In this document: positions 8,595-61,642 of the stretch, piece by piece
How positions within the stretch are numbered: position 1 is the first letter of the stretch
Layout of the letters: the number at the start of each line of letters is the position of its first letter
DNA from: Leptotrichia sp. oral taxon 879 str. F0557
GTDB lineage: Bacteria > Fusobacteriota > Fusobacteriia > Fusobacteriales > Leptotrichiaceae
Direction: 5' to 3'
NCBI RefSeq assembly: GCF_000469385.1
Contig: NZ_KI271333.1
Coordinates: 1 to 62,355, forward strand
Length of the DNA: 62,355 nucleotides
Notes under the pieces: generated by a model
What the model was told of the DNA's origin: nothing
Seen by the model: the letters and a program-made list of their open reading frames with translations, nothing else
Databases searched by the model: none
Made by a program: the position numbers and the translations under genes

Positions 8595-8699
8595 ATTTGA
8601 AATTGAAAATAAAAAAATTATGATAATTCCTAAAATTGTTTGATTTTATCAGTTTAATATTGAAAGAGTTAAGATATATTTTGGAAAGGATTTTGAATA

Positions 8700-18250: not shown

Positions 18251-18289
18251 AAATTTAAAAATTTTATAAAAAACGTCGTGATTTTTTGG

Positions 18290-18476
18290 AAATAAAATTG
18301 ACTGTTTGAGCGAAGTTTAACGTAGCGAGTTTCAATTTTGTTTTCAAAAAATGCTTAGATAAGTCAGGGATAGTGCGTAGCACTTTCGCCATTCTCTTTA
18401 ATATGCTGTTATTTAAATATGTTAAAATAACTATTATTGCGAAATAAAGGGAAATGGCGATTGATACCCTTGCTTA
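18290..18476 (-). repeat. Dispersed structured repeat family 2, copy Y
   Basis: Read on the minus strand, it has an AAGGG/CCCTT hairpin whose loop contains CAATCGCCAT, then TTTATTTCG and TAGTTATTT. Next comes GCGAAAGTGCTACGCACT, with the AGTGC/GCACT stem, then ATTTTTTGAAAACAAAA. The same order occurs on the plus strand at 31631-31775. It fills the only large gap inside the Opp operon and points against the direction of transcription. Confidence 0.65.
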
Positions 18477-18599
18477 AATAAATTAAATTAATAAATTCAA
18501 TAAAGAAAAAATATTTATTAATCAAAAAGGTTTTTATCTAAGTTTTTTTTATATTTTAAAATATATAACAATCCATATTAATACAGAGAGGATTAGAGA

Positions 18600-20657: not shown

Positions 20658-22256
20658 ATGAAAAAAAGTTTTTTAGTATTTTGTTTACTTATATCAATGT
20701 TTATCATCTCTTGTGGAAAATCTGGCAATGATGGTAAATCAGCAGCATTTAACATTGAAGCTGAACCAACATCTTTAGATCCCCAAGTTTTAACTGATAT
20801 CAGTGGATTTATGGTTACAAATATGACTTATGAGCCACTTGTAAGGCTAAATGAAAAAAATGAAGTTGTTCCTGCTGGAGCTGAAAGCTGGACTAAATCA
20901 GAAGACGGAAAAGTATGGACATTTAAAATCAGACAAGGAATGAAATGGAGCAACGGAGATCCTGTTACAGGAAAAGACTACTTTAACGGAATCAAAAGAG
21001 GAATCGATCCTAAAACTCGATCTGAATATTCAATACTTACTTTCTACATTGAAAATGCAGAGAACTTTAATAATGGAACTATAAAAGACTTTGGACAAGT
21101 TGGAGTAAAATTAAAAGACGACTATACACTTGAATTTACTTTATCAAAACCTGCACCATTCTTTATAAAAACATTAATTATGCCAGTTTACTTCCCAGTT
21201 AATGAAAAAGCATTGGCCACTAATGGCGAAGCGTACGCAACTGAAGCTGATAAATCAATTTATAATGGGCCATTTATAATGGAAGAATGGGAACATAATA
21301 GTAAAGTTGTTATGAAGAAAAATCCTAATTACTGGAATGCTCAAAATATAAAATTAGACACTCTTACAGCAACAATTGTAGCAGATCTTGATGCCGCTAC
21401 AAATTTCTTTGAAAATAAAGAGTTAGATTTAACAAGAATTTCTGTAGAAAAGATGGAAAGTTACAAAGGAAAACCAGAATTACATACAGTTCCTGATGGA
21501 AGAGTATACTATTTTGGATTTAATCGTTCAAATCCTGTGTTAAAAAATATAAAAATTAGACAGGCATTATCTCTTGCAATAGATAGAAAACAGCTTGTTG
21601 ACAGTGTTCTAAACGGAGTTGGACTTCCTGCTTCAGGAGTTGTTGCACTTGGAAACGCTGGAGAAAAAGGTGACTTTAGAAAAGAAGCTGGAGATTTATT
21701 TGCACAATTCTCAAACATTACTCCAAAACAGTTGTTTGATGAAGGATTAAAAGAATTAAATATTACTCCTGCACAAGTTAAGTTAAAATTAACTGTTGAC
21801 GAAAAGGGAACTGGTAAAAAAGAAGCAGAATTTTATCAAGCTCAATGGAAAGAAAAATTAGGAATTGATGTAGAAGTAGAAGTTCTGACTACTAAAGAAA
21901 GAATTGCACGTGCAAAAGCTGGAGAATTTGATATAGTAAGATATGGTTGGGGACCTGATTATGCAGATCCTATGACTTACCTTGAAATTTTCCACTCAAA
22001 ATCAAAAGATCTTAATTTTGCTAAATATTCAAATCCTGAGTATGACAAATTAATTGACTTGGCTAAAGTTAACCAAGATAATAAAACTAGAATGGATGCG
22101 ATGAAAAAAGCAGAAAAATTACTATCAGACGACTTTACATATTCAGCACTTTACTATCAAGTAGGGGTATATTTAATAAATCCTAACTTAAAAGGTGTTG
22201 TTTTACGTTCAGTTGGAGATTCTGTAGACTTTTATAGTGCTTATATCACAAAATAA
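20658..22256 (+). CDS. Peptide-binding lipoprotein, OppA/DppA family (SBP 1)
   Basis: This 532-residue extracytoplasmic binding protein has a lipoprotein signal ending in MFIISC (cysteine near 19). SBP family 5 marks are EPTSLDPQ, VWTFKIRQGMKWSNGDPVTG and IRQALSLAIDRKQL. It delivers peptides to the DppBC-type permease. It is the most distinct of the four tandem binding proteins, with a longer insertion at about 345-400 (GNAGEKGDFRKEAGD). Confidence 0.93.
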   Translation: MKKSFLVFCLLISMFIISCGKSGNDGKSAAFNIEAEPTSLDPQVLTDISGFMVTNMTYEPLVRLNEKNEVVPAGAESWTKSEDGKVWTFKIRQGMKWSNGDPVTGKDYFNGIKRGIDPKTRSEYSILTFYIENAENFNNGTIKDFGQVGVKLKDDYTLEFTLSKPAPFFIKTLIMPVYFPVNEKALATNGEAYATEADKSIYNGPFIMEEWEHNSKVVMKKNPNYWNAQNIKLDTLTATIVADLDAATNFFENKELDLTRISVEKMESYKGKPELHTVPDGRVYYFGFNRSNPVLKNIKIRQALSLAIDRKQLVDSVLNGVGLPASGVVALGNAGEKGDFRKEAGDLFAQFSNITPKQLFDEGLKELNITPAQVKLKLTVDEKGTGKKEAEFYQAQWKEKLGIDVEVEVLTTKERIARAKAGEFDIVRYGWGPDYADPMTYLEIFHSKSKDLNFAKYSNPEYDKLIDLAKVNQDNKTRMDAMKKAEKLLSDDFTYSALYYQVGVYLINPNLKGVVLRSVGDSVDFYSAYITK

Positions 22257-22303
22257 TTTTAATTTACTAATTTAATACGCCAAAAGAAAGGGTGAGTGCA
22301 AGT

Positions 22304-23893
22304 ATGAAGAAAATATTACTAATCTTTACAATATTACTGGCTTTCGTTATTTCCTGTGGAAAAGGTGAAGATTCTGAAACATTAAAGCTCAACTTAAAAG
22401 AAGAAGGGAAATCTTATGATCCACAGCTTGCAAATGATTCAACGGGAGAATTTGTGGATTCACTTATTGCTGAAACATTAACAAGACAGGCAGAAGATGG
22501 AAAATCTATTCCTGGTGTGGCAGAAAAATGGGAACACAACGAAAATTCAACAGTGTGGACATTCCACTTGAGAAAAAATGCAAAATGGAGCAATGGTGAT
22601 CCTATTACGGCAAAAGACTTTAGAGATGGTTGGGTTAGAGCATTAAAACCTGAAACAGCAGGAGAATATGCAGACAAATTATTTTACATAAAAAATGCTG
22701 AACAATTTAATGCAGGAAAAATTAAAGATGAAAATCAGCTTGGTATAAAGGTTATCGATGATTACACACTAGAAGTAACATTGAACAATCCTCTTACCTA
22801 CTTTGATTCGATTGTAAGAATTCAGACTTATGCTCCTCTAAACAAAAAATTCTATGATAAAGTAGGAGAAAAATATATGACATCTCCTGAAACATCAATT
22901 TCATCAGGTGTATATATAATAAAATCTTGGACAAGAGATTCAGAAATTGTATTCGAAAAAAATGAAAACTACTGGAATAAAGATAACATCAAATTAAAAT
23001 CTATAAAGATGTTATTTATAAATGATCCTAATGCCAGCGTAAATGCTTTTAAAAATGGAGAAATTGACTCAACAAACATCTCTATTGAGCAGGCTAAGGA
23101 ATTTAAGAATGACAAACGTAAACTGCTTACAAAAGATGGTTCTGTCTGGTATATGACATACAACATGAAAAATAAAGTTCTTGCGAACAAAAAAATTAGA
23201 CAAGCTTTATCACTTGCTGTAGATAGAGAAAAATTAATTACAGATGTACTTGATAATACAGGAGAAGCTGCTTACACTTATACAACAAAAGGTGTTGGAA
23301 TCAACGGTATTTCAAAAGATTTCTCTGAAGAAGCAGGAAAAATTTTCCCAGCTTACAATCCACAAAAAGCAAAACAATTGCTAGCAGAAGGATTAAAAGA
23401 GCTAGGGTTACAAAAATTGCCTGATTTGACAATGATTTTCAATGATTCTGGAAATAATAAGGTTATTTCTGAGTATATTCAGGAAAGTTTAAGAACAAAT
23501 TTAGGAGTAAACCTTAAAATTGAAGGAATGACATTCCAATCAAGACTAGATAAAATGCAACACAGAGATTATGAAATTGCTCTTGCAGGTTACAACGGAG
23601 ATTATAACGATGCAATCACTTACTTAGATAGATTCCTGACAAAAGATGGAAACAATTTTTCAGATTACTCTAACCCTCGTTACGACGAACTTGTGAAAAA
23701 AGTTAAAAGTTCTGGAAATCAGGAAGAAAGAGTTAAGAATATGATTGAAATGGAAAGAATAATTGCAGAAGATATGCCTGTGGGACTACTTTACTATAGA
23801 CAAAATACAAAATTATTGAATCCAAGAGTTCATAACATTGTATTTAGTCCAATAGGAAAAGATTTCGTTTTGGATAATACTTATATAAAATAA
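22304..23893 (+). CDS. Peptide-binding lipoprotein, OppA family (SBP 2)
   Basis: This protein of about 529 residues has a lipoprotein signal ending LLAFVISC. The start is set at the ATG 22304, which gives an MKK-type signal peptide like its paralogues; a GTG at 22292 would add MSAS. It has WTFHLRKNAKWSNGDPITAKD, IRQALSLAVDREKL and a C-terminal LLYYRQNTKLLNPRV. SBPs 2, 3 and 4 share the phrase WSNGDP-x-TA-x-DF followed by a GW-x-R motif, so they arose by tandem duplication. Confidence 0.92.
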   Translation: MKKILLIFTILLAFVISCGKGEDSETLKLNLKEEGKSYDPQLANDSTGEFVDSLIAETLTRQAEDGKSIPGVAEKWEHNENSTVWTFHLRKNAKWSNGDPITAKDFRDGWVRALKPETAGEYADKLFYIKNAEQFNAGKIKDENQLGIKVIDDYTLEVTLNNPLTYFDSIVRIQTYAPLNKKFYDKVGEKYMTSPETSISSGVYIIKSWTRDSEIVFEKNENYWNKDNIKLKSIKMLFINDPNASVNAFKNGEIDSTNISIEQAKEFKNDKRKLLTKDGSVWYMTYNMKNKVLANKKIRQALSLAVDREKLITDVLDNTGEAAYTYTTKGVGINGISKDFSEEAGKIFPAYNPQKAKQLLAEGLKELGLQKLPDLTMIFNDSGNNKVISEYIQESLRTNLGVNLKIEGMTFQSRLDKMQHRDYEIALAGYNGDYNDAITYLDRFLTKDGNNFSDYSNPRYDELVKKVKSSGNQEERVKNMIEMERIIAEDMPVGLLYYRQNTKLLNPRVHNIVFSPIGKDFVLDNTYIK

Positions 23894-23962
23894 TAAATAA
23901 AATTGTTTAATTTTGAAATTATTCAATAAATTTAATATAAAATTTTGAAGGAGAAAACTGTT

Positions 23963-25552
23963 ATGAAAAAAATATTAGCTATGTTAATGATGCTGATTTT
24001 CGTTATTTCTTGCGGGAAAAGTGGCGGAAATAGCAAAACGTTTACTTTAAATTTGACGGATGAGCCAAAATCTATTGATCCACAAATTTCAACGGAAATA
24101 ATGGGAGGAACTGTTGATGATCTTTTAACGGAAGGATTGACTAGAAAAGGGAAAAATGGAACATTTGAGCCAGGACTTGCTAAAAGCTGGGATAAATCAG
24201 CTGATGGATTAAAATGGACATTTCATTTAAGAGATAATCTAAAATGGAGCAATGGTGATCCAATTACTGCCCAAGACTTTAAAAATGGATGGCTTCGTGC
24301 ATTAAAACCTGAAACAGCTTCTGAATATGCATATATGCTTTATCCAATAAAAAATGCAGAAAAATATAATAAAAAAGAAGGAACTGCAGAAGAAGTTGGA
24401 ATAAAAGTTATCGACGATAAAACTTTGGAAGTAGAACTTGGAACTCCAGTTCCATATTTTGACAGCCTTGTAGCATTCAAAACTTACATGCCATTAAATC
24501 AAAAATTCTTTGATGAAACAAAAGATTCATATTTTACAGAATCTGAAAAAACAATATCTTCAGGTGCCTACACAATGGAAAGCTGGACACATGGCTCAGA
24601 AATAGTATTCAAAAAAAATCCTAATTACTGGGATGCACCTAATGTAAAAGTTGAAAATATTGTGTACAAAATAATAACTGATAATAATTCAGCATTAAAT
24701 GCATTTAATAACAAGGAAGTAGATGTAACTTCAATTACTGCTGAACAAGCAAAAAGATTTAAAGATGATCCAAAAATGGTTTCGAGTAATGATGGATCAG
24801 TATGGTATTTGCTATTTAACTTTAACAATAAGACGTTAGCAAATGTAAAAATCAGAAAAGCTCTTCTTATGTCAGTTGACAGAGAAGGTTTAGTAAAAAA
24901 TGTATTAAATGGATATGGAACAGCAGCAAAAACTCTTGTTCCAAAAGGAATAGGAATAAAAGGATTAAATGACAAGGACTTTACAGAACAAGTTCCTACT
25001 TCAACATTAACATACAATCCTGCGGAAGCTAAAAAATTATTAGCAGAAGGACTGAAGGAAACAGGAGCAGCAAAATTCCCTGATATGTCTATGTTAATTA
25101 ATGAAAGTGGAAATAATAAAGTTATTGCAGAATACATTCAAGAACAATTAAGAAAAAATTTAGGTATTGAATTAAATCTGGAAATAATGACTGCTCAAGA
25201 AAGATTCTCAAGAATGAAGCAAAAAAACTTTGACTTAGTTCTTGCAGGATGGTCTGGAGATTATCCTGATGCAGTCACTTACTTAGATTTGTTTGAATCA
25301 ACAGGTGGAACTAACTATGGTTCATATAAAAACCCTCAATATGATGCTTTAGTTAAGACTGTCAGAGGAACAGCCGATCAAAATGTCAGAATTCCTGCAC
25401 TTGTTAAACTTGAAGGAATAATTGCAGAAGATTTACCAGTTGGTGTGCTTTTCCATAGAGAAAAACAATATCTAGTTAATGAAAGAGTTCAAGGTCTTGG
25501 ATTTGTTGCAATTGGTGGAGAATATTATTTTGGAAATCTATCATTGAAATAA
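23963..25552 (+). CDS. Peptide-binding lipoprotein, OppA family (SBP 3)
   Basis: This protein of about 529 residues starts at the ATG 23963 behind GAAGGAG; a TTG at 23945 would place the ribosome binding site inside the gene. The lipobox is LIFVISC. It has WTFHLRDNLKWSNGDPITAQD, IRKALLMSVDREGL and GVLFHREKQYLVN. It is closest to SBP 4 (VGIKVIDDKTLEVELGTPVPYFD against VGIKVIDDKTLQVTLEAPTPYFD). A GC-rich hairpin lies between genes 3 and 4. Confidence 0.92.
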   Translation: MKKILAMLMMLIFVISCGKSGGNSKTFTLNLTDEPKSIDPQISTEIMGGTVDDLLTEGLTRKGKNGTFEPGLAKSWDKSADGLKWTFHLRDNLKWSNGDPITAQDFKNGWLRALKPETASEYAYMLYPIKNAEKYNKKEGTAEEVGIKVIDDKTLEVELGTPVPYFDSLVAFKTYMPLNQKFFDETKDSYFTESEKTISSGAYTMESWTHGSEIVFKKNPNYWDAPNVKVENIVYKIITDNNSALNAFNNKEVDVTSITAEQAKRFKDDPKMVSSNDGSVWYLLFNFNNKTLANVKIRKALLMSVDREGLVKNVLNGYGTAAKTLVPKGIGIKGLNDKDFTEQVPTSTLTYNPAEAKKLLAEGLKETGAAKFPDMSMLINESGNNKVIAEYIQEQLRKNLGIELNLEIMTAQERFSRMKQKNFDLVLAGWSGDYPDAVTYLDLFESTGGTNYGSYKNPQYDALVKTVRGTADQNVRIPALVKLEGIIAEDLPVGVLFHREKQYLVNERVQGLGFVAIGGEYYFGNLSLK

Positions 25553-25562
25553 GTTAAATTAT

Positions 25563-25582
25563 GGGGGTAGTATGTTACCCCC
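25563..25582 (+). terminator. GC-rich intercistronic hairpin between SBP 3 and SBP 4
   Basis: GGGGGTA pairs with TACCCCC across a six-base loop. There is no good T run (CTCTATTT follows), so it may be a weak terminator or a 3' stability hairpin that lowers expression of the last binding protein. Confidence 0.5.
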
Positions 25583-25639
25583 CTCTATTTAATAATCTAA
25601 ATTTTTGAAAAAACATTTAAAATAGGAGGAAATAAATTA

Positions 25640-27226
25640 ATGAAAAAGCTGTTTTTAATATTGACATTGCTAATGTTTGTGCTTTCGTGTGGAAGTAAAA
25701 ATGGAAGTAATGGAAATACATTTACATTAAATATAGTAACTGAACCATCGTCAATTGATCCGCAAATAACAACAGACGTTCCTGGTGGAACTGTTGATGA
25801 ATTAATTTTAGAAGGTCTTTTAAGAAAAGACAAGACTGGTAAATCTGTTGCTGGAATTGCTGAAAAATGGGAAAAATCAGAAGACGGACTTGTTTGGACG
25901 TTCCATTTAAGAGACGGTGTGAAATGGAGCAACGGAGATCCTGTTACTGCAAAGGACTTTAAAGCTGGATGGCTTCGTGGATTAAATCCTGACACAGCAG
26001 GAAGTAATGCAAGTATGTTATTTGTAATAAAAAATGGAGAAAAATACAATGCTAAAAAAGCTTCAGAAAATGAAGTTGGAATAAAAGTTATTGATGATAA
26101 AACATTACAAGTAACTTTGGAAGCACCTACTCCATATTTTGATGATTTAGTTACGTTCAAATCATTTATGCCGTTAAACCAAAAATTCTACAACGAAGTA
26201 AAGGATAAATACTTTACAGATGCTGAATACACAATTTCAAACGGTCCTTACACTATGGAAAGCTGGACTCACGACTCAGAATTAAAATTCAAAAAAAATC
26301 CTAACTACTGGGACGCATCTAATGTAAAAACTGACAATGTCGTATTAAAAATAATCGCTACAGATTCAGCTGTTAATGCTTTTAAAAACAAAGAAGTTGA
26401 TGTAACTGCTATAACTTTTGAACAAGCAAAAGAATTTGCTGGAAAACCAGAACTTGTAAAAGCTGATGATGGTGGAATTTACTACTTGCTATTCAACACA
26501 AAAGAAAATGTATTTAAAAATGCAAAAGTAAGACGTGCAATAACTATGGCAATAAATAGAGATGAACTTATAAACAAAGTTCTTGAAGGCTCTGAAAAAG
26601 CGACTAAAGCATTCACTCCAACTGGAATTGGACTAAACGGAATTGCAAAAGATTTCGCACAGGAAGTTACAACTGACCAGCCTAAATTCAACGTTGAAGA
26701 AGCTAAGAAATTACTAGCAGAAGGACTTAGAGAAGAAGGATTAACAGAACTTCCAAGATTTGAAATTTTATTTAATGACACAGGAAGCAGAAAAGCCATT
26801 GTTGAATACATTCAAGAAAACTTGAGAAATAACTTGGGAGCAAATGTCGAACTGGATGTTGTAACAGGTAAGGAACGTGTTGAAAGAACTAAAAAACGTG
26901 ACTATCAAGTTGCTCTTATGAACTGGACTGGAGATTTCCTAGATCCTATCACATATTTAGATTTATTTGACAGCACAAATGCAAACAACCGTGGAGATTT
27001 CAAAAACGCAAGATATGACGAATTAACTAAAATTGTAAAAAGCTCTGCTGATCCAAAAGTAAGAGTTCCAGCAATGCTAGAAATGGAAAAACTTATCTCT
27101 GAAGAGCAACCAGTTACAATCTTATTCCAAAAACAAAAACTTTACTTAGTAAATCCAAAAGTTAAAAATCTAGGATTTGTATCAATTGGTGGAGAGTTCT
27201 TTATAAGAGATGTTGTAATGAATTAA
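25640..27226 (+). CDS. Peptide-binding lipoprotein, OppA family (SBP 4)
   Basis: This 528-residue protein starts after AATAGGAGG, with a lipoprotein signal ending LMFVLSC. It has EPSSIDPQITTDV, WTFHLRDGVKWSNGDPVTAKD and VRRAITMAINRDEL. The C-terminal ILFQKQKLYLVNPKV block matches the family. It is the last gene of the Opp cluster, before a terminator with TAAGGGCAT/ATGCCCTTA arms. Confidence 0.92.
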   Translation: MKKLFLILTLLMFVLSCGSKNGSNGNTFTLNIVTEPSSIDPQITTDVPGGTVDELILEGLLRKDKTGKSVAGIAEKWEKSEDGLVWTFHLRDGVKWSNGDPVTAKDFKAGWLRGLNPDTAGSNASMLFVIKNGEKYNAKKASENEVGIKVIDDKTLQVTLEAPTPYFDDLVTFKSFMPLNQKFYNEVKDKYFTDAEYTISNGPYTMESWTHDSELKFKKNPNYWDASNVKTDNVVLKIIATDSAVNAFKNKEVDVTAITFEQAKEFAGKPELVKADDGGIYYLLFNTKENVFKNAKVRRAITMAINRDELINKVLEGSEKATKAFTPTGIGLNGIAKDFAQEVTTDQPKFNVEEAKKLLAEGLREEGLTELPRFEILFNDTGSRKAIVEYIQENLRNNLGANVELDVVTGKERVERTKKRDYQVALMNWTGDFLDPITYLDLFDSTNANNRGDFKNARYDELTKIVKSSADPKVRVPAMLEMEKLISEEQPVTILFQKQKLYLVNPKVKNLGFVSIGGEFFIRDVVMN

Positions 27227-31552: not shown

Positions 31553-31630
31553 TAAAAATATATTTTTTTATGTTTTGTTGTTAATAAATATTTTTTCTAT
31601 AATTTATATGTTTTTTCTTTTTTATAAAGC

Positions 31631-31775
31631 AAAGGGGAACAGTCGCCATCCCCTTTTATTTCGTAATATTAGTTATTTCAATTTCTTCAAATTATAATAT
31701 TTGAAGATTTTAGCGAAAGTGCTACGCACTAATCTCGCCTTGTCTAAATATTTTTTGAAAACAAAAATTAAGCAA
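31631..31775 (+). repeat. Dispersed structured repeat family 2, copy X (includes rsmI terminator)
   Basis: AAAGGGGA pairs with TCCCCTTTT (31631-31659) around ACAGTCGCCA and is followed by TTTCG, so the head can terminate rsmI. It is followed by GTTATTT, GCGAAAGTGCTACGCACT with an AGTGC/GCACT stem, and ATTTTTTGAAAACAAAA. Copy Y at 18290-18476 is inverted and copy Z near 48505 is diverged. Confidence 0.65.
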
Positions 31776-31913
31776 AATTTCGTTAATAGAAAAAGAATTG
31801 TTTGAGATTTTTGAATATAATTTGAATTGTAATTGTTTATAGAAATGAAATAATTGTTATTAAAAATCGAGTTTTTTTTTCTGTTATAAGAAAGTTTTGC
31901 GTAAAGCCAGAGT

Positions 31914-31941
31914 GCAGAGGTATAGCGTCTGATACCTCTGC
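31914..31941 (+). other. Perfect hairpin with GC-containing arms
   Basis: GCAGAGGTAT pairs perfectly with ATACCTCTGC across an eight-base loop (AGCGTCTG). No T run follows on either strand, so it is unlikely to be a terminator. It is the strongest structure in the rest of the 31776-32133 gap, which otherwise is featureless AT-rich DNA. Confidence 0.45.
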
Positions 31942-32133
31942 GTTAAAAAAACTAATATAAATAAAATAAGAAAATAATTATTAATAAAAATAAATTGAAA
32001 TAAAAATAAAAAATAATATGAAAAATAGATAGAAAAGGTTAATAATATTGAGTTTTTATCTTTAATTTTAAAATTAACCTTAATTTTAGGATTAAAAATA
32101 AAAATTTAGAGAGAAAATGGAGAAAATGAAAGA

Positions 32134-35441: not shown

Positions 35442-35575
35442 ATTTTGGGTATTTCAATTTACATCTATTAGCCTTTATCTCAATTTGTTTTTTATGTGAT
35501 TCTCTATTTAATACTAATTCTCTTTTAAAAATAGTAATAAATTTTTATAATAGGATTGTTCAATAGCTAATACTA

Positions 35576-35678
35576 TAGTAAAACTAGTTTAAAACAGAAC
35601 TCAAAAATTATGACTATTTTACTCAAACCCTAAATTATATAATTTCTATCAGTTCAATTTTAAACGGGTTCGAGTATG
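35576..35678 (+). repeat. Dispersed repeat family 1, copy C
   Basis: It runs from TATAGTAAAACTAG to GGGTTCGAGTATG. The centre TTATGACTATTTTACTCAAA is identical to copy B, while the 3' arm (ATCAGTTCAATTTTAAACGG) is closer to the inverted copy at 55049. The remaining gap to the cupin promoter holds only AT-rich sequence. Confidence 0.75.
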
Positions 35679-35785
35679 TTTTCATTAAATAGTGAATGTT
35701 TAATAAATTACACTATTTTCTAATGAGAAATTAGTATTATATAAGAAAAATTTTATAATCATTGTGACTTTTAAAAAAATTTTGC

Positions 35786-36423: not shown

Positions 36424-37206
36424 ATGAAAAAAATTAAATTATTGCTAGGAGTTTTATTATTGCTGATTTTAGCCGTATCTTGTGGAAATAAAGCGAATGC
36501 TGGGAAAAAAAGGGTTATAAAAGTAGGGACAGATGGAGTTTATGCACCATTTTCGTTTAAGGATGAAAGTAACGGGAAATTGACAGGGTATGATGTTGAG
36601 GTTATTCAGGAAGTTGGAAAAAGAATAAATGCAGATATTGAATTTACAACTGTTCCTTGGGATAGTATATTTCTAGGGCTAGAGTCAAAAAGATATGACA
36701 TTATTGCCAATGAAATTGAAAAAACTAAGGAAAGAGAAGAAAAGTATATTTTTTCTGATAAATATTTAGTTTCAGCTGCTCAGATTATTGTAAAAGAGGG
36801 AGAGAATAATATAAAGACTTTAAAGGATCTGGAAGGTAAAAGAGTAATTTCAGCAGTTGGAAGCAATTATTCAAAAACTGTTGAGGAATATAATAAAACG
36901 GCTGCTAAAAAGATAGATCTTAATTATTTTGATGGCGGAATTACATTGACATTGGTAGAAATAGCACAAGGAAAAGCGGATGCAACATTGAGCGACAGAC
37001 TTGTGGTAAGTTACTATAAAAAACAGCAAGGAGATAAAGTTCAGCTGGTAGGGGAGCCTTTGAGTACAACTCCGACATTTTTCTTATTTAGAAAAGATAG
37101 CGAAGAATTAAGAAATGAAGTGAACAAAGTACTTGCTGAAATGAGGGCTGACGGAACGCTTGCTAAAATATCAGAAAAATGGTTTGGCGGAGATTATACG
37201 AAATAA
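36424..37206 (+). CDS. Polar amino-acid ABC transporter substrate-binding lipoprotein
   Basis: This 260-residue lipoprotein has a signal ending LAVSC and an SBP family 3 domain. VGTDGVYAPFSFKDE, GYDVEVIQEVGKRINADIEF, DSIFLGLESKRYDIIANEI and the C-terminal KISEKWFGGDYTK are typical of cystine, glutamine or other polar amino-acid binders. It delivers substrate to the permease and ATPase encoded next (gaps of 21 and 1 bases). The leader upstream may control it in response to amino-acid supply, which is inferred. Confidence 0.93.
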   Translation: MKKIKLLLGVLLLLILAVSCGNKANAGKKRVIKVGTDGVYAPFSFKDESNGKLTGYDVEVIQEVGKRINADIEFTTVPWDSIFLGLESKRYDIIANEIEKTKEREEKYIFSDKYLVSAAQIIVKEGENNIKTLKDLEGKRVISAVGSNYSKTVEEYNKTAAKKIDLNYFDGGITLTLVEIAQGKADATLSDRLVVSYYKKQQGDKVQLVGEPLSTTPTFFLFRKDSEELRNEVNKVLAEMRADGTLAKISEKWFGGDYTK

Positions 37207-38749: not shown

Positions 38750-38781
38750 TCTCTAAATAAAAATATTTGGAGTTTTTTTTT
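38750..38781 (+). terminator. Terminator of amino-acid ABC operon 1
   Basis: CTCTAAATA pairs with TATTTGGAG (one G-T pair) and runs into nine Ts. Confidence 0.88.
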
Positions 38782-38789
38782 CACATGTA

Positions 38790-39340
38790 TAATGGACATG
38801 AGCTTTCGCTCTACATTTGTAATAACTGATTTATTTAGCTAATATCAGCCTAAGTCTGAGCATAAAGGAGCTACCTTTATACTTCTTAAACTCTATCAAA
38901 TGATAGTTAAGATATACTGGAATTTCACCAATAACAACAACAAAGCATTCAGAATTTGGTATTCATAATTTAATCTGGTGGATTTTTGCCGTTGTAACTT
39001 TAACAATCAATTATAGTGACTTATTCAGTTCACATCAACCACCTAACAGATTTTGATTATTCCTTATAGTTTCTTGAGCTATCACCCTCAAGTCTTTTAA
39101 GGTTATTTTCCACAGGAACGTCTATTGAATCTGCCTAATCCAATTAAAGTGCTTTAATCTTCTATCATTACAAATATGCTTATAACTTAATCTTGTGAAT
39201 GTATACACTCGTTGATTAATGTCGCCACTTTATCAAAAGCCTACATATTCAGTATCCCAAATAATTCAACTCATTTTCCGCTATAACCTCAGCAACTATG
39301 CTCTTAGTTTCTTCACTGAGTTATGTCATAAATAAATTAT
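38790..39340 (-). mobile_element. Degraded mobile-element remnant, possibly IS200/IS605 TnpB end
   Basis: This gap of about 550 bases is less AT-rich in places than true spacers and shows broken coding on the minus strand. The best piece reads ADSIDVPVENNLKRLEGDSS, then RNYKE, a stop and SKSVRWLM. It resembles the C-terminal end of TnpB proteins, which is where a right end with hairpins would follow. Hairpins AAAGG/CCTTT (near 38865) and a GAGC-GAAA-GCTC tetraloop hairpin (near 38810) lie beyond it, as expected for such an end. No intact domain was found, and the family call is tentative. Confidence 0.4.
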
Positions 39341-39440
39341 ACCTTATAAAACTATTGTTTTCAAATATTATATTTTAAATTTTAAAAAAATTTTTTATAG
39401 TTTTTTAAATAAAAAATATATGTATATACAAAAATAATTC

Positions 39441-47016: not shown

Positions 47017-47080
47017 TTGATATAATTATTTGGGTTTTCGTCAAAAACCTTAATATACCATGATTGGGGGTGAAACTGTC

Positions 47081-47149
47081 ATGGAGCGTGATATAATTTA
47101 TATCATAATTCAAATTGTAGTTGTCTACTATTTTTTAAGTAGAGGATAA
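47081..47149 (+). CDS. Putative type I toxin, 22-residue hydrophobic peptide
   Basis: A 22-residue frame reads MERDIIYIIIQIVVVYYFLS then RG. It has charged ends and a continuous hydrophobic core that would span a membrane. It is preceded by GGGGGTG, a Shine-Dalgarno-like sequence ten bases before the ATG. Directly after the stop, CACCCCAA (47150-47157) can pair with that site. A terminator at 47178-47207 ends a transcript of about 185 bases. Size and composition resemble Ibs-, Fst- or TisB-like type I toxins, though no sequence relation to a named family was recognised. A leader-peptide role for manA is unlikely because a terminator and a new promoter intervene. Confidence 0.55.
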   Translation: MERDIIYIIIQIVVVYYFLSRG

Positions 47150-47177
47150 CACCCCAAAAATGAAAAAATACTTTTCC

Positions 47178-47207
47178 CCTGCAGATATTATTTGCAGGTT
47201 TTTTTTT
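47178..47207 (+). terminator. Terminator of the toxin mRNA
   Basis: CCTGCA pairs with TGCAGG across a nine-base loop and is followed by nine Ts. Confidence 0.85.
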
Positions 47208-47229
47208 GCAAAATTTTTTCATTATGTTG

Positions 47230-47258
47230 TTGTAAAATTTGATTCAAAATGTTATCAT
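47230..47258 (+). promoter_or_regulatory. Putative manA promoter
   Basis: TTGTAA and TATCAT are 17 bases apart, beginning 23 bases after the T run of the toxin terminator and ending 57 bases before the manA start. Confidence 0.45.
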
Positions 47259-47315
47259 GAAATAAAGAAATTATTGAAAATTAATTATATAAATGAAATA
47301 AAGGAGAGAGTTCTT

Positions 47316-48358: not shown

Positions 48359-48504
48359 AGTTGGAATATGATATTCTAATGTTATACTAATATTGTTTTA
48401 TAGTTAAATAATATATAATGTTTTGAAAATATATATTAAATTTTTACTTTAGTATATTTTAGTTAATAATTGTTTTTCTATTTATATTTATAATTCATTT
48501 TAAC

Positions 48505-48650
48505 GTAAGGGCATCGACATCATGCCCTCTTTCATAATAACAGTTATTTGAATACTTAACTGGCTACCTCTTAGAGCTAATGGCGAAAAGTTCTATGGAC
48601 TACCCTTCTTGACGTAAAATTTTCTTATAAAAGAAAAATAGAACTCATTT
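48505..48650 (+). repeat. Dispersed structured repeat family 2, copy Z (diverged)
   Basis: AAGGGCAT pairs with ATGCCCT at its head, followed by CATAATAACAGTTATTTGAA, as in copy Y. Then AATGGCGAAAAGTTCTATGGACT replaces GCGAAAGTGCTACGCACT. The stem is preserved as AGTTC against GGACT, with changes on both sides. The remaining 48651-48931 sequence is AT-rich, with no other structure that I can defend. Confidence 0.45.
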
Positions 48651-48931
48651 TTAAATATAGGTTATTTTAATATGAATAAGTATATATAATTTTAAATAAT
48701 TTATAAAAGTTTAAACAACTATTTTTCTTCTGACGAAATTTTGCTTAATATTTTTTACTAAACTATTTGTTTATTAAATTAAAAATGCCTAAACGAGCTG
48801 GGATTAAAAAGGTATGGTAATTATTTCCGTTTGCCCTAAAAAAGTATAAAGAAATATAAGAAAAATATTTATTGATAAAAAAATTTATAGAGTTTTTGAA
48901 AAAATAATTGAAAGAATAGGAATTAAGAAAA

Positions 48932-50181: not shown

Positions 50182-51009
50182 ATGAGTTTTCGGTTAAATC
50201 CGTTTAAAGTAATGAGAGCAGTTGGAATTGTTGCAGTTGTTACTTATGGTATAGTGCTTGCAACAGGCTATAAAAAGTCAAAAGAAACTACGACTGAAAG
50301 CGTTACAAAAGAGATGAAAATTAGAAATAAGGATTTTTACAATTCTAAAGACTATAAAAACAATTTGACTTTACCAAATCAGGTTGTGGAAAATAATAAT
50401 GAAACAGTCACAAAAGAGCTTGAGCAGGCAAAAAGCTCACAGCCAATTAATTTACAGCAAGATCAAATAGCAATTAATCCAAAAAACGTTTCATCACAAT
50501 CACAAACAAATGTAAAAATAACTAATGATGCCAAAAAGAAACAGGAAGAAACAAAACTGGAAGTTAAAAAATTAGAGCAGAAAAAACAGGAAGAGGCAAA
50601 AATTGCTGAGCAGAAACGTCAGGAAGAAGCAAGAATAGAAGCTCGTCAAGCTGAAATAAGAAAACAGCAGCAGGAGGCAGCTAGAAAGGAACAGGCAAGA
50701 GTAGAAGCGGCAAAACAGCATGCTAAAGAAGAGGCAGCAAGAAAAGCAAGGGAAGAAGCCAAAAAAAATCAGATAAAAAGCGGATCTAAAAAGTACATTC
50801 AGGTAGCTTCGGTAACTTCGGAATCTTCAGCAAGAGAAATAGCTAAAAAGCTAGGTGGGAATTTCTATTATAAAAAAACTTCAGTAAATGGAAGAACAGT
50901 TTATGTAGTGATGTCAAATATGACAGACAACCCGAATACTTTAAAAACTATGGAAAATCAAGCTAAGAAAGCAGGAAGTGGCTATATGATCCGTTCTGTT
51001 GGGAAATAA
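50182..51009 (+). CDS. SPOR-domain membrane protein with coiled coil
   Basis: This 275-residue protein has one N-terminal transmembrane segment (about 12-30). A disordered Thr/Asn/Gln region follows, then a long Lys/Glu/Ala/Gln/Arg coiled coil (about 112-200). The C-terminal SPOR domain (about 205-275) reads KKYIQVASVTSESSAREIAK and NGRTVYVVMSNM. SPOR domains bind denuded peptidoglycan at the septum, so a role in division or envelope constriction is likely. It lies between mtnN and a DHH phosphoesterase gene. Confidence 0.88.
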   Translation: MSFRLNPFKVMRAVGIVAVVTYGIVLATGYKKSKETTTESVTKEMKIRNKDFYNSKDYKNNLTLPNQVVENNNETVTKELEQAKSSQPINLQQDQIAINPKNVSSQSQTNVKITNDAKKKQEETKLEVKKLEQKKQEEAKIAEQKRQEEARIEARQAEIRKQQQEAARKEQARVEAAKQHAKEEAARKAREEAKKNQIKSGSKKYIQVASVTSESSAREIAKKLGGNFYYKKTSVNGRTVYVVMSNMTDNPNTLKTMENQAKKAGSGYMIRSVGK

Positions 51010-52679: not shown

Positions 52680-53615
52680 TTATTCATTATCTTCAATTTT
52701 ATTTTTGGAATTTTCTAAATCGTCAAAAACATTGATAAGACTATCAGAATCAACCTCATAATACATACTGTCATTATAATAATCATCAGTCTTGAAATTT
52801 GCAAAGCTTTTAATTTCATCAATTTCTTCATTCTGAATATTGTCTTCTTCGGAAATATCATCTGAAATACTTTGAGAAACGTCAATATTGTGAGCTTCGT
52901 TAATAGCGGCTCCATCTATTTCTCCACCTGCGATCTCATTTTCTATAGAATCGGGAATATTGATCGTTACGTCACTAGAAATCATTTTTTCACTTTCTGA
53001 AACAGTTTCTTCAGATTCTAGCTGTTCATCAGTATCATTATTAAGTTGGAAAAGATTATCAAAAAATATAAAGAAGTCGTTAATTGCAGAACTTTCTTTT
53101 TCAGTTTTTAACATAAGAATAGTTCCTTCGAGTAGAGCTATCAGAAGTCTTGCCGTTGTTTCTGGAACGATATCATCGTATTTTTCAGGAAAAGAATATT
53201 TTAAAGTAGTTATAAAAAAAGAAAATCTAAGTTCTATTTTTTTATAGGATTTTACAAGTTCTTCACGTATATTATTTTTTAAATCTGCTAGCTCTAAAGC
53301 TAAATTTCCAAGCGGGCTTCCACCATGAAACTTGTTATTTACAATATTTTCAAAATATTTTTCAAAAAAATAGTGAAATTTATGGATTGATAAGTCATCT
53401 ACATTGCTGTTAAAGAAGTTTATAAGATTTTCAGTATGATACTTTATAACAGCAATAAGCAATTCTTCCTTGCTAGAAAAAAACTTGTAAAAAATATCGT
53501 TAGGCATTTCACAAGCCTTAAAAATATCCGTTAATTCAGTGTTTTTATAGCCTTTATAATAAAAAAGTTTTGCACTTTGCTGTATTATAAAATTTTTATT
53601 ATATTCTTTAGTCAT
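52680..53615 (-). CDS. TetR-family regulator with a long acidic C-terminal extension
   Basis: This 311-residue protein has an N-terminal TetR helix-turn-helix (about 1-55: FIIQQSAKLFYYKGYKNTEL, KACEMPNDIFYKFFSSKEEL). A helical ligand domain extends to about 195. The last 115 residues are a Glu/Asp/Ser/Ile/Asn-rich tail beginning near DEQLESEETVSESEKM, unusual for a family normally near 200 residues. It is transcribed divergently from the PatB-like gene, with about 100 bases between them, so it may control that gene and itself. The ligand is unknown. Confidence 0.85.
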   Translation of the reverse strand: MTKEYNKNFIIQQSAKLFYYKGYKNTELTDIFKACEMPNDIFYKFFSSKEELLIAVIKYHTENLINFFNSNVDDLSIHKFHYFFEKYFENIVNNKFHGGSPLGNLALELADLKNNIREELVKSYKKIELRFSFFITTLKYSFPEKYDDIVPETTARLLIALLEGTILMLKTEKESSAINDFFIFFDNLFQLNNDTDEQLESEETVSESEKMISSDVTINIPDSIENEIAGGEIDGAAINEAHNIDVSQSISDDISEEDNIQNEEIDEIKSFANFKTDDYYNDSMYYEVDSDSLINVFDDLENSKNKIEDNE

Positions 53616-54906: not shown

Positions 54907-55048
54907 GAAATTTACCTTTCAATATTGTTTATACAAAAACTTACAAAAAAATAATATAATTAAAAGAAATTATTAAATTATTTCTATTTATCAGCTTGTA
55001 TAATGAAAATGTATGGTTATAACAGTATAAATATTAAATTGCTTAAAA

Positions 55049-55152
55049 TATAACTTGAACCCCCTTCAAAATAGAACTGATAAATCAAATAATCTTGGAG
55101 TCTGGGTAGAATCATAATTTTTGAGTTCGGTTTTAAAGTAATTTTTACTATA
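55049..55152 (-). repeat. Dispersed repeat family 1, copy E (inverted)
   Basis: Read on the minus strand it runs from TATAGTAAAAATTAC through ACTCAAAAATTATGA to ATCAGTTCTATTTTGAAGG and a GGTTCAAGTTATA end. It matches copies B, C and D over both outer blocks, with a diverged centre. It ends 20 bases before the msrA start and so overlaps the region where msrA's promoter should be. Confidence 0.6.
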
Positions 55153-55173
55153 GATTAGAGGAGGTGCAATTTT

Positions 55174-55833: not shown

Positions 55834-56895
55834 ATGTCAAAATTAGATGAAATCACAAGAGAATCTTGGATTTTGGGGACATTTCCTGAATGGGGAACTT
55901 GGTTAAATGAGGAAATAGCTGAAACAGTAGTAAAACCAAAAACTGTAGCAATGTGGTGGCTTGGAAACATGGGACTTTGGATAAAAACAGAAGGAAATGC
56001 GAATATTGCAATGGACATCTGGGTAGCAACAGGTAAAAGAAGTCAAAAAAATAAATTAATGAAACCTAAACATCAACATCAAAGAGCAGTTGGATGTGTA
56101 GCTTTACAGCCGAATTTAAGACTTACGCCTTGTGTTATAGATCCTTTTGCAATAGAAGGTCTTGATGCATTGCTTGCAACACATTCACATAGTGATCATA
56201 TAGATGTAAATGTTGCAGCGGCAGTTGTAAAAAATTGTCCAGAAGCAAAATTCGTAGGACCAAAAACATGTATTGAAATTTGGAGAAAATGGGGAGTGCC
56301 TGAAGATAGGCTGGTACAAGTAAAACCAGGAGATGAAATTACAATAAAAGATGCAAAAATAAAAGCATTGGAATCATTTGACAGAACTATGCTTTTAACA
56401 GTTGCTGAAGATGTAACATTAAAAGGAAATTTACCGCCCGATATGGATGAAATGGCAGTAAACTATCTAGTTGAAACAACAGGTGGAAATATTTACAATG
56501 CAGGAGATTCGCACCATTCAAACTATTTTGTAAAACATGGAGATGAAAATAAAGTAGATGTGGCATTTGTAGGATATGGAGATAATCCAAGAGGAATGAC
56601 AGATAAATTAACTTCTTCAGATGTGCTAAGAGTAGCTGAAGAATTGAGAACACAAGTTGTTATACCGCTTCATCACGATATTTGGTCTAACTTTATGGCA
56701 GATCCGAAAGAAATAACATTATTGTGGAATTATAGAAAAGATAGAATGAAGTATGAATTTAAACCATATATATGGCAGCCTGGAGGGAAATTTGTATTCC
56801 CTGATAACAAAGATGATATGGAATATATGTACAGAAGAGGATTTGAAGACGCATTTACAATAGAACCTGATTTGCCATTTAAATCATTCTTATAG
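55834..56895 (+). CDS. ulaG: L-ascorbate-6-phosphate lactonase UlaG
   Basis: This 353-residue metallo-beta-lactamase-fold hydrolase opens the ascorbate-6-phosphate lactone. The start is ATG 55834 behind AGGAGGG; longer readings run back across the promoter. [20 protein letters not shown] is the diagnostic N-terminus, [12 protein letters not shown] is the metal-binding H-x-H-x-DH motif, and [11 protein letters not shown] and [11 protein letters not shown] supply further ligands. Length equals the E. coli protein. It heads the operon here, whereas in E. coli ulaG is divergent. Confidence 0.96.
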
Positions 56896-56965
56896 GAAAA
56901 TTAAATATATGGAAAAATATTTGATAAAATGAAATTATTAAAAAAATATATAAAGGAGAAAAATC

Positions 56966-58490
56966 ATGAATTTATTAATGGCAATTGGAACATGGTTTGG
57001 ACAAAATATTTTAACTAAGCCAGAATTTTTTGTAGGTTTACTGGTTTTTGTTGGATATTTGTTCTTAGGTAAAAAAATATATGAGGCAGTTGGAGGGTTT
57101 ATTAAGGCAACTGTAGGATACATGATATTGAATGTCGGTGCAGGAGGGATAGTAACAACATTTAGACCAATACTGGCGGCATTAAAGACTAAATTTCAAT
57201 TAAATGCGGCAGTTATAGATCCTTACTTTGGATTGCAGGCTGTGGATGAAGCAATAAAAAATATTATTGAACAGGATTCATCTAAATCTAATTTGGCAGC
57301 AGCAGTTATGATGGCACTCCTTATAGGATTTGTTATAAATATACTATTAGTGTTATTTAGGAAATTTACTAAAGTAAGAACATTATTCATAACAGGGCAT
57401 ATTATGCAGCAACAGGCTTCTACAGCAGCTTGGATGATATTCTTCCTGTTTCCTCAGTTCCAAAATATAAAGGGAGTAATATTAATAGGAATTTTTGCAG
57501 GAATATATTGGGCAGTTGGATCAAACTTATCAGTGGAACCAACTCAAAGATTAACAGAAAATGCTGGATTTGCGATAGGACATCAGCAAATGTTTGCTAT
57601 ATGGGTAGCAGATAAATTGGCACCAAAAATAGGAAATCCTAAAAAGAAACTGGATGATTTGAAATTGCCTAAATGGTTATCAATGCTTCACGATGATATT
57701 ATTGCAACAGGACTTATAATGATAGTGTTCTTTGGAATAATAATGTGGGTGCTAGGGCCTGAATTCTTTACTGCGAAATTTGGTAAATGTGTTATTGAAA
57801 ATAATGTACAGACTTGTCCAGTTATAAATCCTAATGGTGTTGCAGCAGGGGCATTTGATCCTAAAAAACTTTCATTTGGTACTTAGTATTGTTTCAACAA
57901 CATTATTGTTTGCAGTATATTTAACAATTTTGAAAACAGGAGTTAGAATGTTCGTATCAGAATTGACAGTATCATTCCAAGGTATTTCAAATAAAATATT
58001 GCCTGGATCATTACCTGCAGTAGACTGTGCAGCTTCTTATGGATTTGGATCACCAAGTGCTGTATTATTCGGATTTTTAGTAGGAACAATAGCTCAATTT
58101 ATTTCAATAGCAGGATTATTAATATTCAAATCGCCTGTATTCATTATAACAGGATTCGTTCCGGTATTCTTTGATAATGCAACTATTGCTGTGTATGCTG
58201 ATAAACGTGGGGGAGCAAGAGCTGCATTCATATTGTCTGCTGTATCAGGAGTATTGCAGGTACTATGCGGAGCTGTTGCGGTAGCTTTATTCCAATTGAA
58301 AGGTGGATGGCATGGAAATATCGACCAAAGTACGGTATGGCTAGCGCAAGGATTTGTAATGAAATATTTAGGAATAATAGGATATGTATTGGTAATTGCT
58401 GCAATGCTTATAATTCCTCAAATTCAATATGCAAAATCTAAAAATAAAGAGCAATATTATGAAGGAACAGTAGATTTAGAAGAAGTTTAA
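56966..58490 (+). pseudogene. ulaA: PTS ascorbate transporter EIIC (UlaA), broken by a +1 frameshift
   Basis: The membrane permease of the ascorbate PTS is split. The first part (from ATG 56966) runs about 304 residues to FDPKKLSF and then hits a stop at 57884-57886. The rest reads on in the next frame from VLSIVSTTLLFAVYLTILK to the end at 58490. The two parts join cleanly if one G of the GG at 57878-57879 is removed, giving about 507 residues. GHQQMFAIWVADKLAP and FKSPVFIITGFVPVFFDNAT are typical UlaA segments. It could be a true mutation, a sequencing error, or recoding. Neighbouring ula genes look intact. Confidence 0.85.
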
Positions 58491-58534
58491 AATTTTAAAA
58501 AATAAAAAAGTAGAAAAGAAAGAAGTGAATAATA

Positions 58535-58816
58535 ATGATAAAAGTATTAGCAGTCTGCGGAAGTGGAATGGGAACAAGTATGATTATGAAGTTAAAAGTT
58601 GGAAAAGTTTTACAAAAATTGGGAGTACAAGCAGATGTAAATTCATGCAGTCTGGGAGAAGCTAAATCAGGACTTTCAAATTATGATTTAGTTCTTGCTT
58701 CAACTCATATCGCCTCTGAATTAAAAGGTGGACCAAATACAAAAATAGTTGGACTTTTAAATTTACTTGATGAAAAAGAGCTAGAAAGTAAATTGACAGA
58801 AGCTGGAATAGCTTAA
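58535..58816 (+). CDS. ulaB: PTS ascorbate-specific EIIB component
   Basis: This 93-residue cytoplasmic EIIB protein has the phosphocysteine loop AVCGSGMGTSMIMKLK (Cys8). It accepts phosphate from UlaC and passes it to ascorbate during transport through UlaA. SNYDLVLASTHIASEL and IVGLLNLLDEKE fit the family. Length is normal. It sits between ulaA and ulaC. Confidence 0.94.
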   Translation: MIKVLAVCGSGMGTSMIMKLKVGKVLQKLGVQADVNSCSLGEAKSGLSNYDLVLASTHIASELKGGPNTKIVGLLNLLDEKELESKLTEAGIA

Positions 58817-58842
58817 AAAATAAAAGTTGAGAGGAGATTTTT

Positions 58843-59292
58843 ATGAATTTGCTGGATTCTTTGAAAGAAAATAATTCTGTTGTGTTACAGCAGGAGGCAA
58901 ATAATTGGGAAGAAGCAATAAAAGTATGTATGAAACCTCTTTTGGAAAGCAATTCAATAGAGGGAAAATACATAGAAAATATAATAAAAAGAACAAAGGA
59001 GTTAGGTCCTTTCTACATTTTGGCTCCAGGATTGGCAATGCCACATGAACGTCCTGAAATGGGAGTTAATAAAAATTCTTTCAGTCTTGTTACGTTAAAA
59101 AAGCCAGTATCATTTCCAGACGGACAGGAAGTGGACATATTAATTGGACTGGCGGCTGAAAATGATGAAGTTCATGCAGGAGAAGCAATACCTCAAATTG
59201 TAATGCTTTTTGATGATGAAGATGTTTTTGAAAAAATAAGAGAGGCTAAAACATCACAAGATATTTATAACTTGATAGAAGAAAAAGCATAA
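58843..59292 (+). CDS. ulaC: PTS ascorbate-specific EIIA component
   Basis: This 149-residue EIIA protein of the mannitol/fructose-like class has the active His in GLAMPHERPEMGV (about residue 67). NSFSLVTLKKPVSFPDGQEV and DILIGLAAENDEVHAGEAIP are characteristic. It is phosphorylated by HPr and hands phosphate to UlaB. The gene has a GAGAGGAG site 27 bases after ulaB and is followed by an intercistronic hairpin. Confidence 0.94.
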   Translation: MNLLDSLKENNSVVLQQEANNWEEAIKVCMKPLLESNSIEGKYIENIIKRTKELGPFYILAPGLAMPHERPEMGVNKNSFSLVTLKKPVSFPDGQEVDILIGLAAENDEVHAGEAIPQIVMLFDDEDVFEKIREAKTSQDIYNLIEEKA

Positions 59293-59315
59293 AATATAAA
59301 AACCACTTTAAATTG

Positions 59316-59354
59316 CTCAAGCTCTTTCTTAAATAATTTTTTAAAGAGTTTGAG
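59316..59354 (+). terminator. Intercistronic hairpin between PTS and catabolic ula genes
   Basis: CTCAAGCTCTTT pairs with AAAGAGTTTGAG (12 base pairs, one G-T) around a 15-base loop. The downstream sequence TATATTTT is only a weak T run, so it is more likely a partial terminator or a 3' end that protects the transporter part of the message. Confidence 0.5.
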
Positions 59355-59396
59355 TATATTTTAAAAAATGCATAAATATGAAATGGAGGAAAAGTG

Positions 59397-60056
59397 ATGG
59401 CAAAACCATTATTACAAGTTGCACTCGATCATTCTAACTTAAAAGGTGCTATAAAAGCTGCAGTATTAGTCGGGAAAGAAGTTGATGTTATAGAAGCTGG
59501 AACAGTTTGTCTGTTACAAGTTGGAAGTGAATTGGTTGAAGTTTTAAGAAATTTATTTCCTGATAAAATAATAGTGGCAGATACAAAATGTGCGGATGCA
59601 GGAGGAACGGTTGCTAAAAATAATGCAGTTCGTGGAGCAGACTGGATGACTTGTATCTGTTCTGCAACAATCCCTACAATGAAAGCGGCTTTAAAAGCTA
59701 TAAAGGAAGAGCGTGGGGAACGTGGAGAAATCCAAGTGGAACTGTATGGCGACTGGACTTACGAACAAGCTCAGCTTTGGTTAGATGCGGGAATTAATCA
59801 GGCTATTTACCATCAAAGCAGAGATGCCTTGCTGGCTGGAGAAACTTGGGGAGAAAAGGACTTGAATAAAGTCAAAAAATTAATTGAAATGGGATTTAAA
59901 GTTTCTGTAACAGGTGGACTTAATACTGATACACTAAAATTATTTGAAGGTGTAGATGTGTTTACATTTATTGCAGGGCGTGGAATTATTGAAGCAGAAG
60001 ATCCTGCGGCAGCTGCCAGAGTATTTAAAGCAGAAATCGATAAATATTGGAAATAG
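59397..60056 (+). CDS. ulaD: 3-keto-L-gulonate-6-phosphate decarboxylase
   Basis: This 219-residue member of the orotidine-monophosphate decarboxylase superfamily starts at ATG 59397 behind TGGAGGAAAAG. LLQVALDHSNLKGAI gives the first active-site Asp. ADTKCADAGG carries the D-x-K-x2-D metal and catalytic set, and YHQSRDALLAGETWG with VTGGLNTDTLKLF bind phosphate. It converts 3-keto-L-gulonate 6-phosphate to L-xylulose 5-phosphate and CO2 with Mg2+. UlaE and UlaF follow. Confidence 0.95.
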   Translation: MAKPLLQVALDHSNLKGAIKAAVLVGKEVDVIEAGTVCLLQVGSELVEVLRNLFPDKIIVADTKCADAGGTVAKNNAVRGADWMTCICSATIPTMKAALKAIKEERGERGEIQVELYGDWTYEQAQLWLDAGINQAIYHQSRDALLAGETWGEKDLNKVKKLIEMGFKVSVTGGLNTDTLKLFEGVDVFTFIAGRGIIEAEDPAAAARVFKAEIDKYWK

Positions 60057-60065
60057 AGGAATAAT

Positions 60066-60941
60066 ATGAAGAATCTTAATAAATTAAATTTAGGAATATA
60101 TGAAAAGGCTCTTCCTAAAGATATTGACTGGGTTGAGAGAATAAAACTTGTTAAAGAATGTGGATATGATTTTGTGGAAATTTCTATAGATGAAACTGAT
60201 GAAAGGCTTGCAAGACTGGATTGGTCCGATGACGAAATAAACAAAATTCATAAGGCATTAATAGATAATGGAGTTAGAATACCGTCAATGTGCTTTAGCG
60301 GACATAGAAGATTTCCTATGGGAAGCATGGATGAAAAAACTAGGGAAAAGGCTATGGAGCTTATGCAAAAGGCGATAATCTTTGCAGATAAAATGGGAAT
60401 CAGAACGATTCAAATGGCTGGATATGATGTTTATTATGAAAAAGGAAATGAGCAGACTAAAAAATATTTTACTGAAAATTTGAAAAAGGCAGTAGAATGG
60501 GCATCTTCGTACAACGTAACACTATCAATAGAAATTATGGATCACCCATTTATCAATTCCATTACAAAATATATGGAATATGCGGATATAATTAAATCTC
60601 CATGGCTAAAGGTTTATCCAGATGTAGGAAATTTGACAGCATGGCCTGAAAATGACACGCTGAAGGAATTGGAATTAGGAATAAAAAATGGAGAAATAAC
60701 AGGAATTCATTTAAAGGATACTTTAGCAGTAACTGATACTTTTGAAGGGAAATTTAAGGAAGTTCCTTTTGGAGAAGGGTGTGTAGATTTTCCAAAAGTA
60801 TTTAAAAAATTAAAAGAATTAAATTATAAAGGACCTTTTTTAATAGAAATGTGGACTGAAAAATCAGATAATCCAATTGAAGAAGTAAAAAAGGCAAAGC
60901 AATGGATGCTGGATAAAATGAAGGAAGGTGGATTTATCTAA
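60066..60941 (+). CDS. ulaE: L-xylulose-5-phosphate 3-epimerase
   Basis: This 291-residue TIM-barrel epimerase has [51 protein letters not shown] and [23 protein letters not shown] carries a metal-binding Glu, DVGNLTAWP and GIHLKDTLA follow, and [11 protein letters not shown] ends the metal site. It converts L-xylulose 5-phosphate to L-ribulose 5-phosphate. It overlaps ulaF by one base. Confidence 0.95.
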
Positions 60942-61642
60942 TGCTGGAAAAATTAAAGGAGCAAGTATTTAAGGCAAATTTAGAATTGCCAAAAAAAGGG
61001 CTGGTATTATTTACTTGGGGAAATGTGAGTGGAATTGACAGAGAAAAAAATCTGATTGTCATAAAACCTAGTGGTGTGGATTATGAAACAATGAAAGTAG
61101 AAGATATGGTAGTAGTTGATTTAGATGGAAATGTTGTAGAAGGTGATTTAAATCCTTCGTCAGATACTCCTACACATATTGAGCTTTATAAAAAGTTTCC
61201 TTCAATAGGAGGAATAGTTCATACTCATTCAACAAATGCTACAATCTGGGCTCAAAGCGGAAGGGATATTCCAGCATACGGGACAACAAATGCTGATTAT
61301 TTCTATGGCTCAATACCTTGTACAAGAAAAATGACAAAAGAGGAAATCACAGGAGAATATGAAAAAGAAACAGGAACGGTAATTATAGAAACTTTTGAAA
61401 AAAGAAATCTAAATCCACAATATATTCCAGGAGTTCTTGTAAATAGTCACGGACCTTTTACATGGGGAAAAAATCCTGATGAAGCTGTTTATAATTCTGT
61501 TGTACTAGAGGAAGTGGCAAAAATGGCAATGTTTACTGAAATGGTAAACAAAGATATAAAGCCAATGCAACAGGAGTTACTAGATAAGCATTTCTTGAGA
61601 AAACATGGAGCTAATGCTTATTATGGACAAAAGAAAAAATAA
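60941..61642 (+). CDS. ulaF: L-ribulose-5-phosphate 4-epimerase
   Basis: This 233-residue class II aldolase-fold epimerase has [30 protein letters not shown], the zinc-binding [16 protein letters not shown] (His-x-His), [11 protein letters not shown] and [20 protein letters not shown] with the third His. It forms D-xylulose 5-phosphate, the exit to the pentose phosphate pathway. AraD-type relatives share the fold, but the operon context identifies it as UlaF. It is the last gene of the ula operon. Confidence 0.94.

Follow-up and report, generated by a model that had tools for sequence, protein, structure and literature searches.

A one-base frameshift splits the ascorbate permease gene ulaA in an otherwise intact operon of Leptotrichia sp. 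oral taxon 879: probably a recent loss of ascorbate uptake

The ascorbate operon of Leptotrichia sp. oral taxon 879 str. F0557 carries a permease gene, ulaA, that is divided between two reading frames, which raises the question of whether the gene has been broken by mutation, has been misrepresented by the assembly, or is still expressed as a working protein across the break. The initial annotation of the window (the whole 62,355-nucleotide stretch analysed) left three explanations side by side: a sequencing error, a very recent mutation and +1 recoding. The evidence assembled here keeps the first two in consideration and leaves recoding unsupported.

The operon occupies positions 55834-61642 in the order ulaG, ulaA, ulaB, ulaC, ulaD, ulaE and ulaF/araD, all on the plus strand, and every gene around the split ulaA is present. 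Four of these six genes pass curated NCBIfam cut-offs: ulaG, encoding L-ascorbate-6-phosphate lactonase (55834-56895; NF008688, 594 bits against a cut-off of 306), ulaD, encoding 3-dehydro-L-gulonate-6-phosphate decarboxylase (59397-60056; NF009832, 332 against 250), ulaE, encoding L-ribulose/xylulose-5-phosphate 3-epimerase (60066-60941; TIGR00542, 411 against 272), and ulaF/araD, encoding L-ribulose-5-phosphate 4-epimerase (60941-61642; TIGR00760, 417 against 389). The best NCBIfam models for ulaB (EIIB, 58535-58816; NF007586, 86 bits, cut-off 138) and ulaC (EIIA, 58843-59292; NF007694, 151 bits, cut-off 187) score below their cut-offs, and the corresponding Pfam domains, PTS_IIB and PTS_EIIA_2, exceed their gathering scores. 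The earlier impression that the other ula genes are intact is therefore borne out, all six being open and matching their families in the NCBIfam or Pfam profiles. The split ulaA is the single ulaA-type permease match in the genome of this strain, and no second permease that could rescue uptake was found there.

The ulaA frame begins at ATG 56966, stays open for 306 codons up to a TAG at 57884-57886, and then continues one frame over to 58490; a single uninterrupted reading frame is thus absent from the window. The N-terminal part (56966-57886, plus strand) comprises V-motif 1, core 1 and the TM6 side of an ascorbate PTS EIIC and aligns with positions 1-241 of the 394-position Pfam EIIC-GAT profile (PF03611), while the C-terminal part (57888-58490, plus strand, +1 frame) extends from TM7 to the end of the protein and aligns with positions 245-385. 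The whole profile is covered, but by two pieces in different frames, each above the gathering score and each matching the structures 4rp8 and 5zov. A MAFFT alignment of seven rows, namely the window, L. hongkongensis (L003), four further loci (L004-L007, from genomes G010, G002, G007 and G008) and one from a metagenome-assembled genome (L015), shows one surplus base, unique to the window and located within the TAG triplet itself (57884-57886, plus strand), in keeping with the gap listing against L. hongkongensis. Likewise, blastn of 56966-58490 requires a single gap opening against each of L003 and L018 (both from the same L. hongkongensis genome), L004, L005 and L015; L006 and L007 are more distant from the ulaA of the window and show additional gaps. 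The one-base shift proposed in the initial annotation is hence confirmed, but not its position: an extra G had been placed at 57878-57879, about seven bases upstream of the base found by alignment. The junction L-S-F-V-L-S-I-V predicted from that placement does not hold either, the relatives nearest the window reading L-S-F-G-T-Y-I-V across the site, whereas the expected length of about 507 residues for the restored protein agrees with the intact UlaA of L. hongkongensis, which has 507 aa.

The disruption is absent from close relatives. Comparing the same position in other genomes, we found that the full L. hongkongensis UlaA aligns in one piece and free of stops at all 18 relative loci, drawn from 17 genomes. 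Among 96 genomes searched across the order, 59 contain a match to the N-terminal part of ulaA, and 24 orthologues besides that of the window were recognized at 64% identity or more, 23 of them open with frames of 478-518 codons. The only short frame (319 codons) belongs to a genome of another genus of the family (G079; L187, positions 690-2121), in which the frame changes about 30 codons downstream of the break point in the window; the matched C-terminal part has a further in-frame stop, and the sequence includes an N run. This genome is reported to be 88% complete. These differences set it apart from the break described here, and the G079 interruption is either independent or an artefact. Matches of the N-terminal part to plasmids by tblastn were all below 60% identity and were set aside. 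Of 13 Leptotrichia genomes, six give a ulaG match, and these same six hold close matches (at least 76% identity) to ulaA, ulaB and ulaD; the other seven are devoid of the locus and yield at most weak matches of 27-39% identity.

The position of the stop bears directly on function. The N-terminal fragment matches residues 2-262 of the E. coli UlaA chain in 4rp8 and the C-terminal part residues 263-440; codon 307 of the window's ulaA aligns with Tyr268 of the E. coli protein, before TM7. Gly286, the pivot of TM7, Arg288 and the later substrate residues of E. coli UlaA all align past the stop. According to PMC6048161, the named substrate contacts further along the chain include Asp314, Ile358, Phe362 and Met410, growth of E. 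coli on ascorbate is abolished by an in-frame deletion of ulaA and also by Arg288Ala, and it is reduced by Gly286Ala. On these grounds the 306-residue fragment should not transport. As regards the next gene, ulaB starts 44 bases after the end of ulaA, and the Shine-Dalgarno scan returned no exact match before it; effects of the break on ulaB are possible.

The pattern of substitution constrains the age of the break. Between the window and L. hongkongensis, dN/dS of ulaA is 0.038 before the stop and 0.014 after it. When changes on the window branch were polarised with L004 and L005, leaving out nine unpolarisable changes before the stop and eight after it, the part before the stop showed six synonymous and three non-synonymous changes, and the part after it eight synonymous and none non-synonymous. 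The post-stop part contains 143 synonymous and 457 non-synonymous sites, and about 26 non-synonymous changes would be expected there on a fully neutral branch, so an unconstrained phase can account for at most about 12% of the window branch by a simple Poisson bound. Because no non-synonymous change accompanies the eight synonymous ones, the break is either very young or not real. The argument of the initial annotation against a genuine loss, namely that the rest of the operon would then serve no purpose, is weak, because a young loss leaves exactly such an intact operon and because seven of the 13 genus genomes have no locus at all.

An artefact is equally consistent with the absence of decay beyond the stop; the surplus base would then be a sequencing or assembly error, and ulaA would be whole in the cell. 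The intact remainder of the operon is also compatible with this explanation, as is the state of the source genome, a draft assembly of 2.42 Mb in 79 contigs with N gaps in some of its sampled stretches. Indel errors mostly occur in homopolymers or short repeats, but the surplus base lies outside any such element. The quality of the surrounding sequence was surveyed against L. hongkongensis over 55,030 aligned bases of the window, 49,748 of them coding. Gaps were dropped when they clustered in poorly aligned stretches (e.g., 52680-53000, 36790-36884 and 19600-19624), formed compensating pairs (55482/55489) or fell within a few codons of gene ends, as were two gaps near 47226-47290, which fall within an RNA motif or immediately downstream of it and probably precede the true start of the gene. 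Two uncompensated interior frameshifts remained, the one in ulaA and a difference in a T run of mutL, and that in ulaA is the only one judged to break a gene of the window. Against G010 (45,800 bases), after equivalent filtering that also took out the repetitive stretch 50477-50719, ulaA was again the sole such frameshift. Wider sampling used L. hongkongensis ORFs (G003) of at least 120 codons, of which 141 of 959 matched sampled DNA of the window's own genome and covered 79,121 unique bases, 47,944 of them inside the window. This flagged two splits; one is ulaA and the other proved to be an N gap whose edge is repeated, which leaves ulaA as the only simple frameshift in these roughly 79 kb of coding sequence. 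The aligned coding DNA gives no sign of an error-ridden assembly, and this survey together with the non-repeat site leans towards a mutation over a single error. We consider an error unlikely on this balance, while assigning it an appreciable share of the probability.

Several further features of the window came to light. The mutL gene, named from its sequence, is whole in the window (9277-11352, 691 aa) and is split by a shorter T run in the complete genome of L. hongkongensis JMUB5056 (G003, L037), a difference that reflects a mutator-type lesion or else a mistake in the JMUB5056 sequence. A manA-II RNA motif (47059-47205, plus strand, 171 bits) lies just upstream of an ORF resembling mannose-6-phosphate isomerase, again named from sequence; the ORF start listed at 47160 overlaps the motif, so that the gene probably begins further downstream. 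A full-length ROOL RNA match (38780-39344, minus strand, 257 bits against a gathering score of 99) is found between ABC-transporter-like genes, and four consecutive ORFs at 20658-27226, behind an opp-type transporter, resemble paralogous peptide-binding lipoproteins, judging from their translations. Short interspersed repeats, roughly 100-200 bases long, occur at about 8470-8620, 18260-18560, 31575-32010, 35570-35690, 48430-48790 and 55030-55160, with many copies in L. hongkongensis (G003) and G010, some of them 95-99% identical; one copy (35569-35680) has a more stable fold than its shuffles (z -2.18) and is outside any Rfam match.

Two other explanations would preserve a functional protein. 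Under +1 recoding, whether programmed or incidental, a shift at ACT-TAG would yield a complete UlaA in which Ser replaces Tyr307 and nothing else is altered. In favour of this, the frames would be joined if a single base were skipped at the stop, and the C-terminal part is constrained. However, the shift occurs at none of the 18 relative loci in 17 genomes, 23 of the 24 further orthologues recognized in the order run through without a break, and the one that is broken (G079) breaks about 30 codons later. The RNA fold at the site is ordinary (z -0.07, computed without pseudoknots), inspection of the sequence revealed no Shine-Dalgarno-like element just upstream, and the CTT-TGA-C motif of the prfB +1 frameshift is absent from the site. 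The slippery TTT-GGT put forward in the initial annotation rests on the misplaced base; since the relatives read F-G-T-Y-I-V and the surplus base falls within the TAG, TTT-GGT is ordinary sequence that they share, and the location of the base inside the premature stop itself removes the proposed slippery site. Lack of conservation, the position of the base and the missing signals thus lead us to reject recoding as the main idea, and we hold it to be very improbable; the same slight weight attaches to a strain-specific version, in which a +1 shift past the TAG would give a working UlaA and a recoded transporter gene particular to this lineage. Alternatively, the two halves might be separate products that together form a functional transporter, with the C-terminal part translated by reinitiation at an in-frame ATG (57948-57950, plus strand) behind AGGAG, 62 bases past the stop and the only one of 12 listed starts in that frame with a Shine-Dalgarno match of at least four bases. 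A start there is possible, yet the 20-odd residues between the stop and this ATG would belong to neither piece, and the counterparts of E. coli Gly286 and Arg288 are among them; in PMC6048161, substitution to alanine reduced growth of E. coli on ascorbate in the first case and abolished it in the second. A C-terminal fragment from this start would be without the first part of TM7, and the AGGAG is accounted for by conserved protein sequence, being found also in relatives with the whole gene. A two-piece transporter is accordingly rejected as scarcely credible. Phase variation through slipped repeats is rejected too, because the surplus base sits in neither a homopolymer nor a short tandem repeat, the only runs listed within 40 bases being GGGG at 57848 and AAAAAA at 57863.

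We therefore place a recent loss first and a sequencing error second: the locus is probably a recent one-base frameshift in ulaA with loss of ascorbate uptake, an ordinary gene-breaking mutation that calls for no new mechanism. We infer that function has been lost and that the cell truly carries the surplus base. In this account a single base, recently inserted in the lineage leading to the strain, would have created the premature TAG at codon 307, the transcript would then direct a 306-residue fragment ending before TM7, the TM7 pivot and the entire second half of the transporter would be lost, and PTS uptake of ascorbate would disappear while the remaining ula genes stay intact. A short-repeat template for the insertion was sought within 1 kb; the two 7-base matches obtained, 364 and 718 bases away, are unpersuasive. 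A literature search, judged by titles, found no report on ulaA of Leptotrichia. The value of the observation is mostly limited to annotation; if the break is real, it captures the loss of ascorbate uptake before the rest of the operon has decayed, in a genus where six of 13 genomes have the locus.

Comparison with characterized systems places the gene as follows. With UlaA of E. coli (4RP8/4RP9) and P. multocida (5ZOV), the two parts in the window share consecutive matches to the same chains and an operon content of ulaG-A-B-C-D-E-F, and the window copy differs in being interrupted at the codon aligned with E. coli Tyr268, before TM7. The resemblance to prfB-type +1 programmed frameshifting extends only to the outcome of a +1 shift at the stop, which would bring the two frames together, whereas the site in the window is not conserved, has no upstream Shine-Dalgarno-like element and presents a different codon context. 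Recent frameshift pseudogenes of sugar transporters similarly combine a one-base shift, a premature stop, intact neighbours and no decay yet; from these, only the gene and the strain differ.
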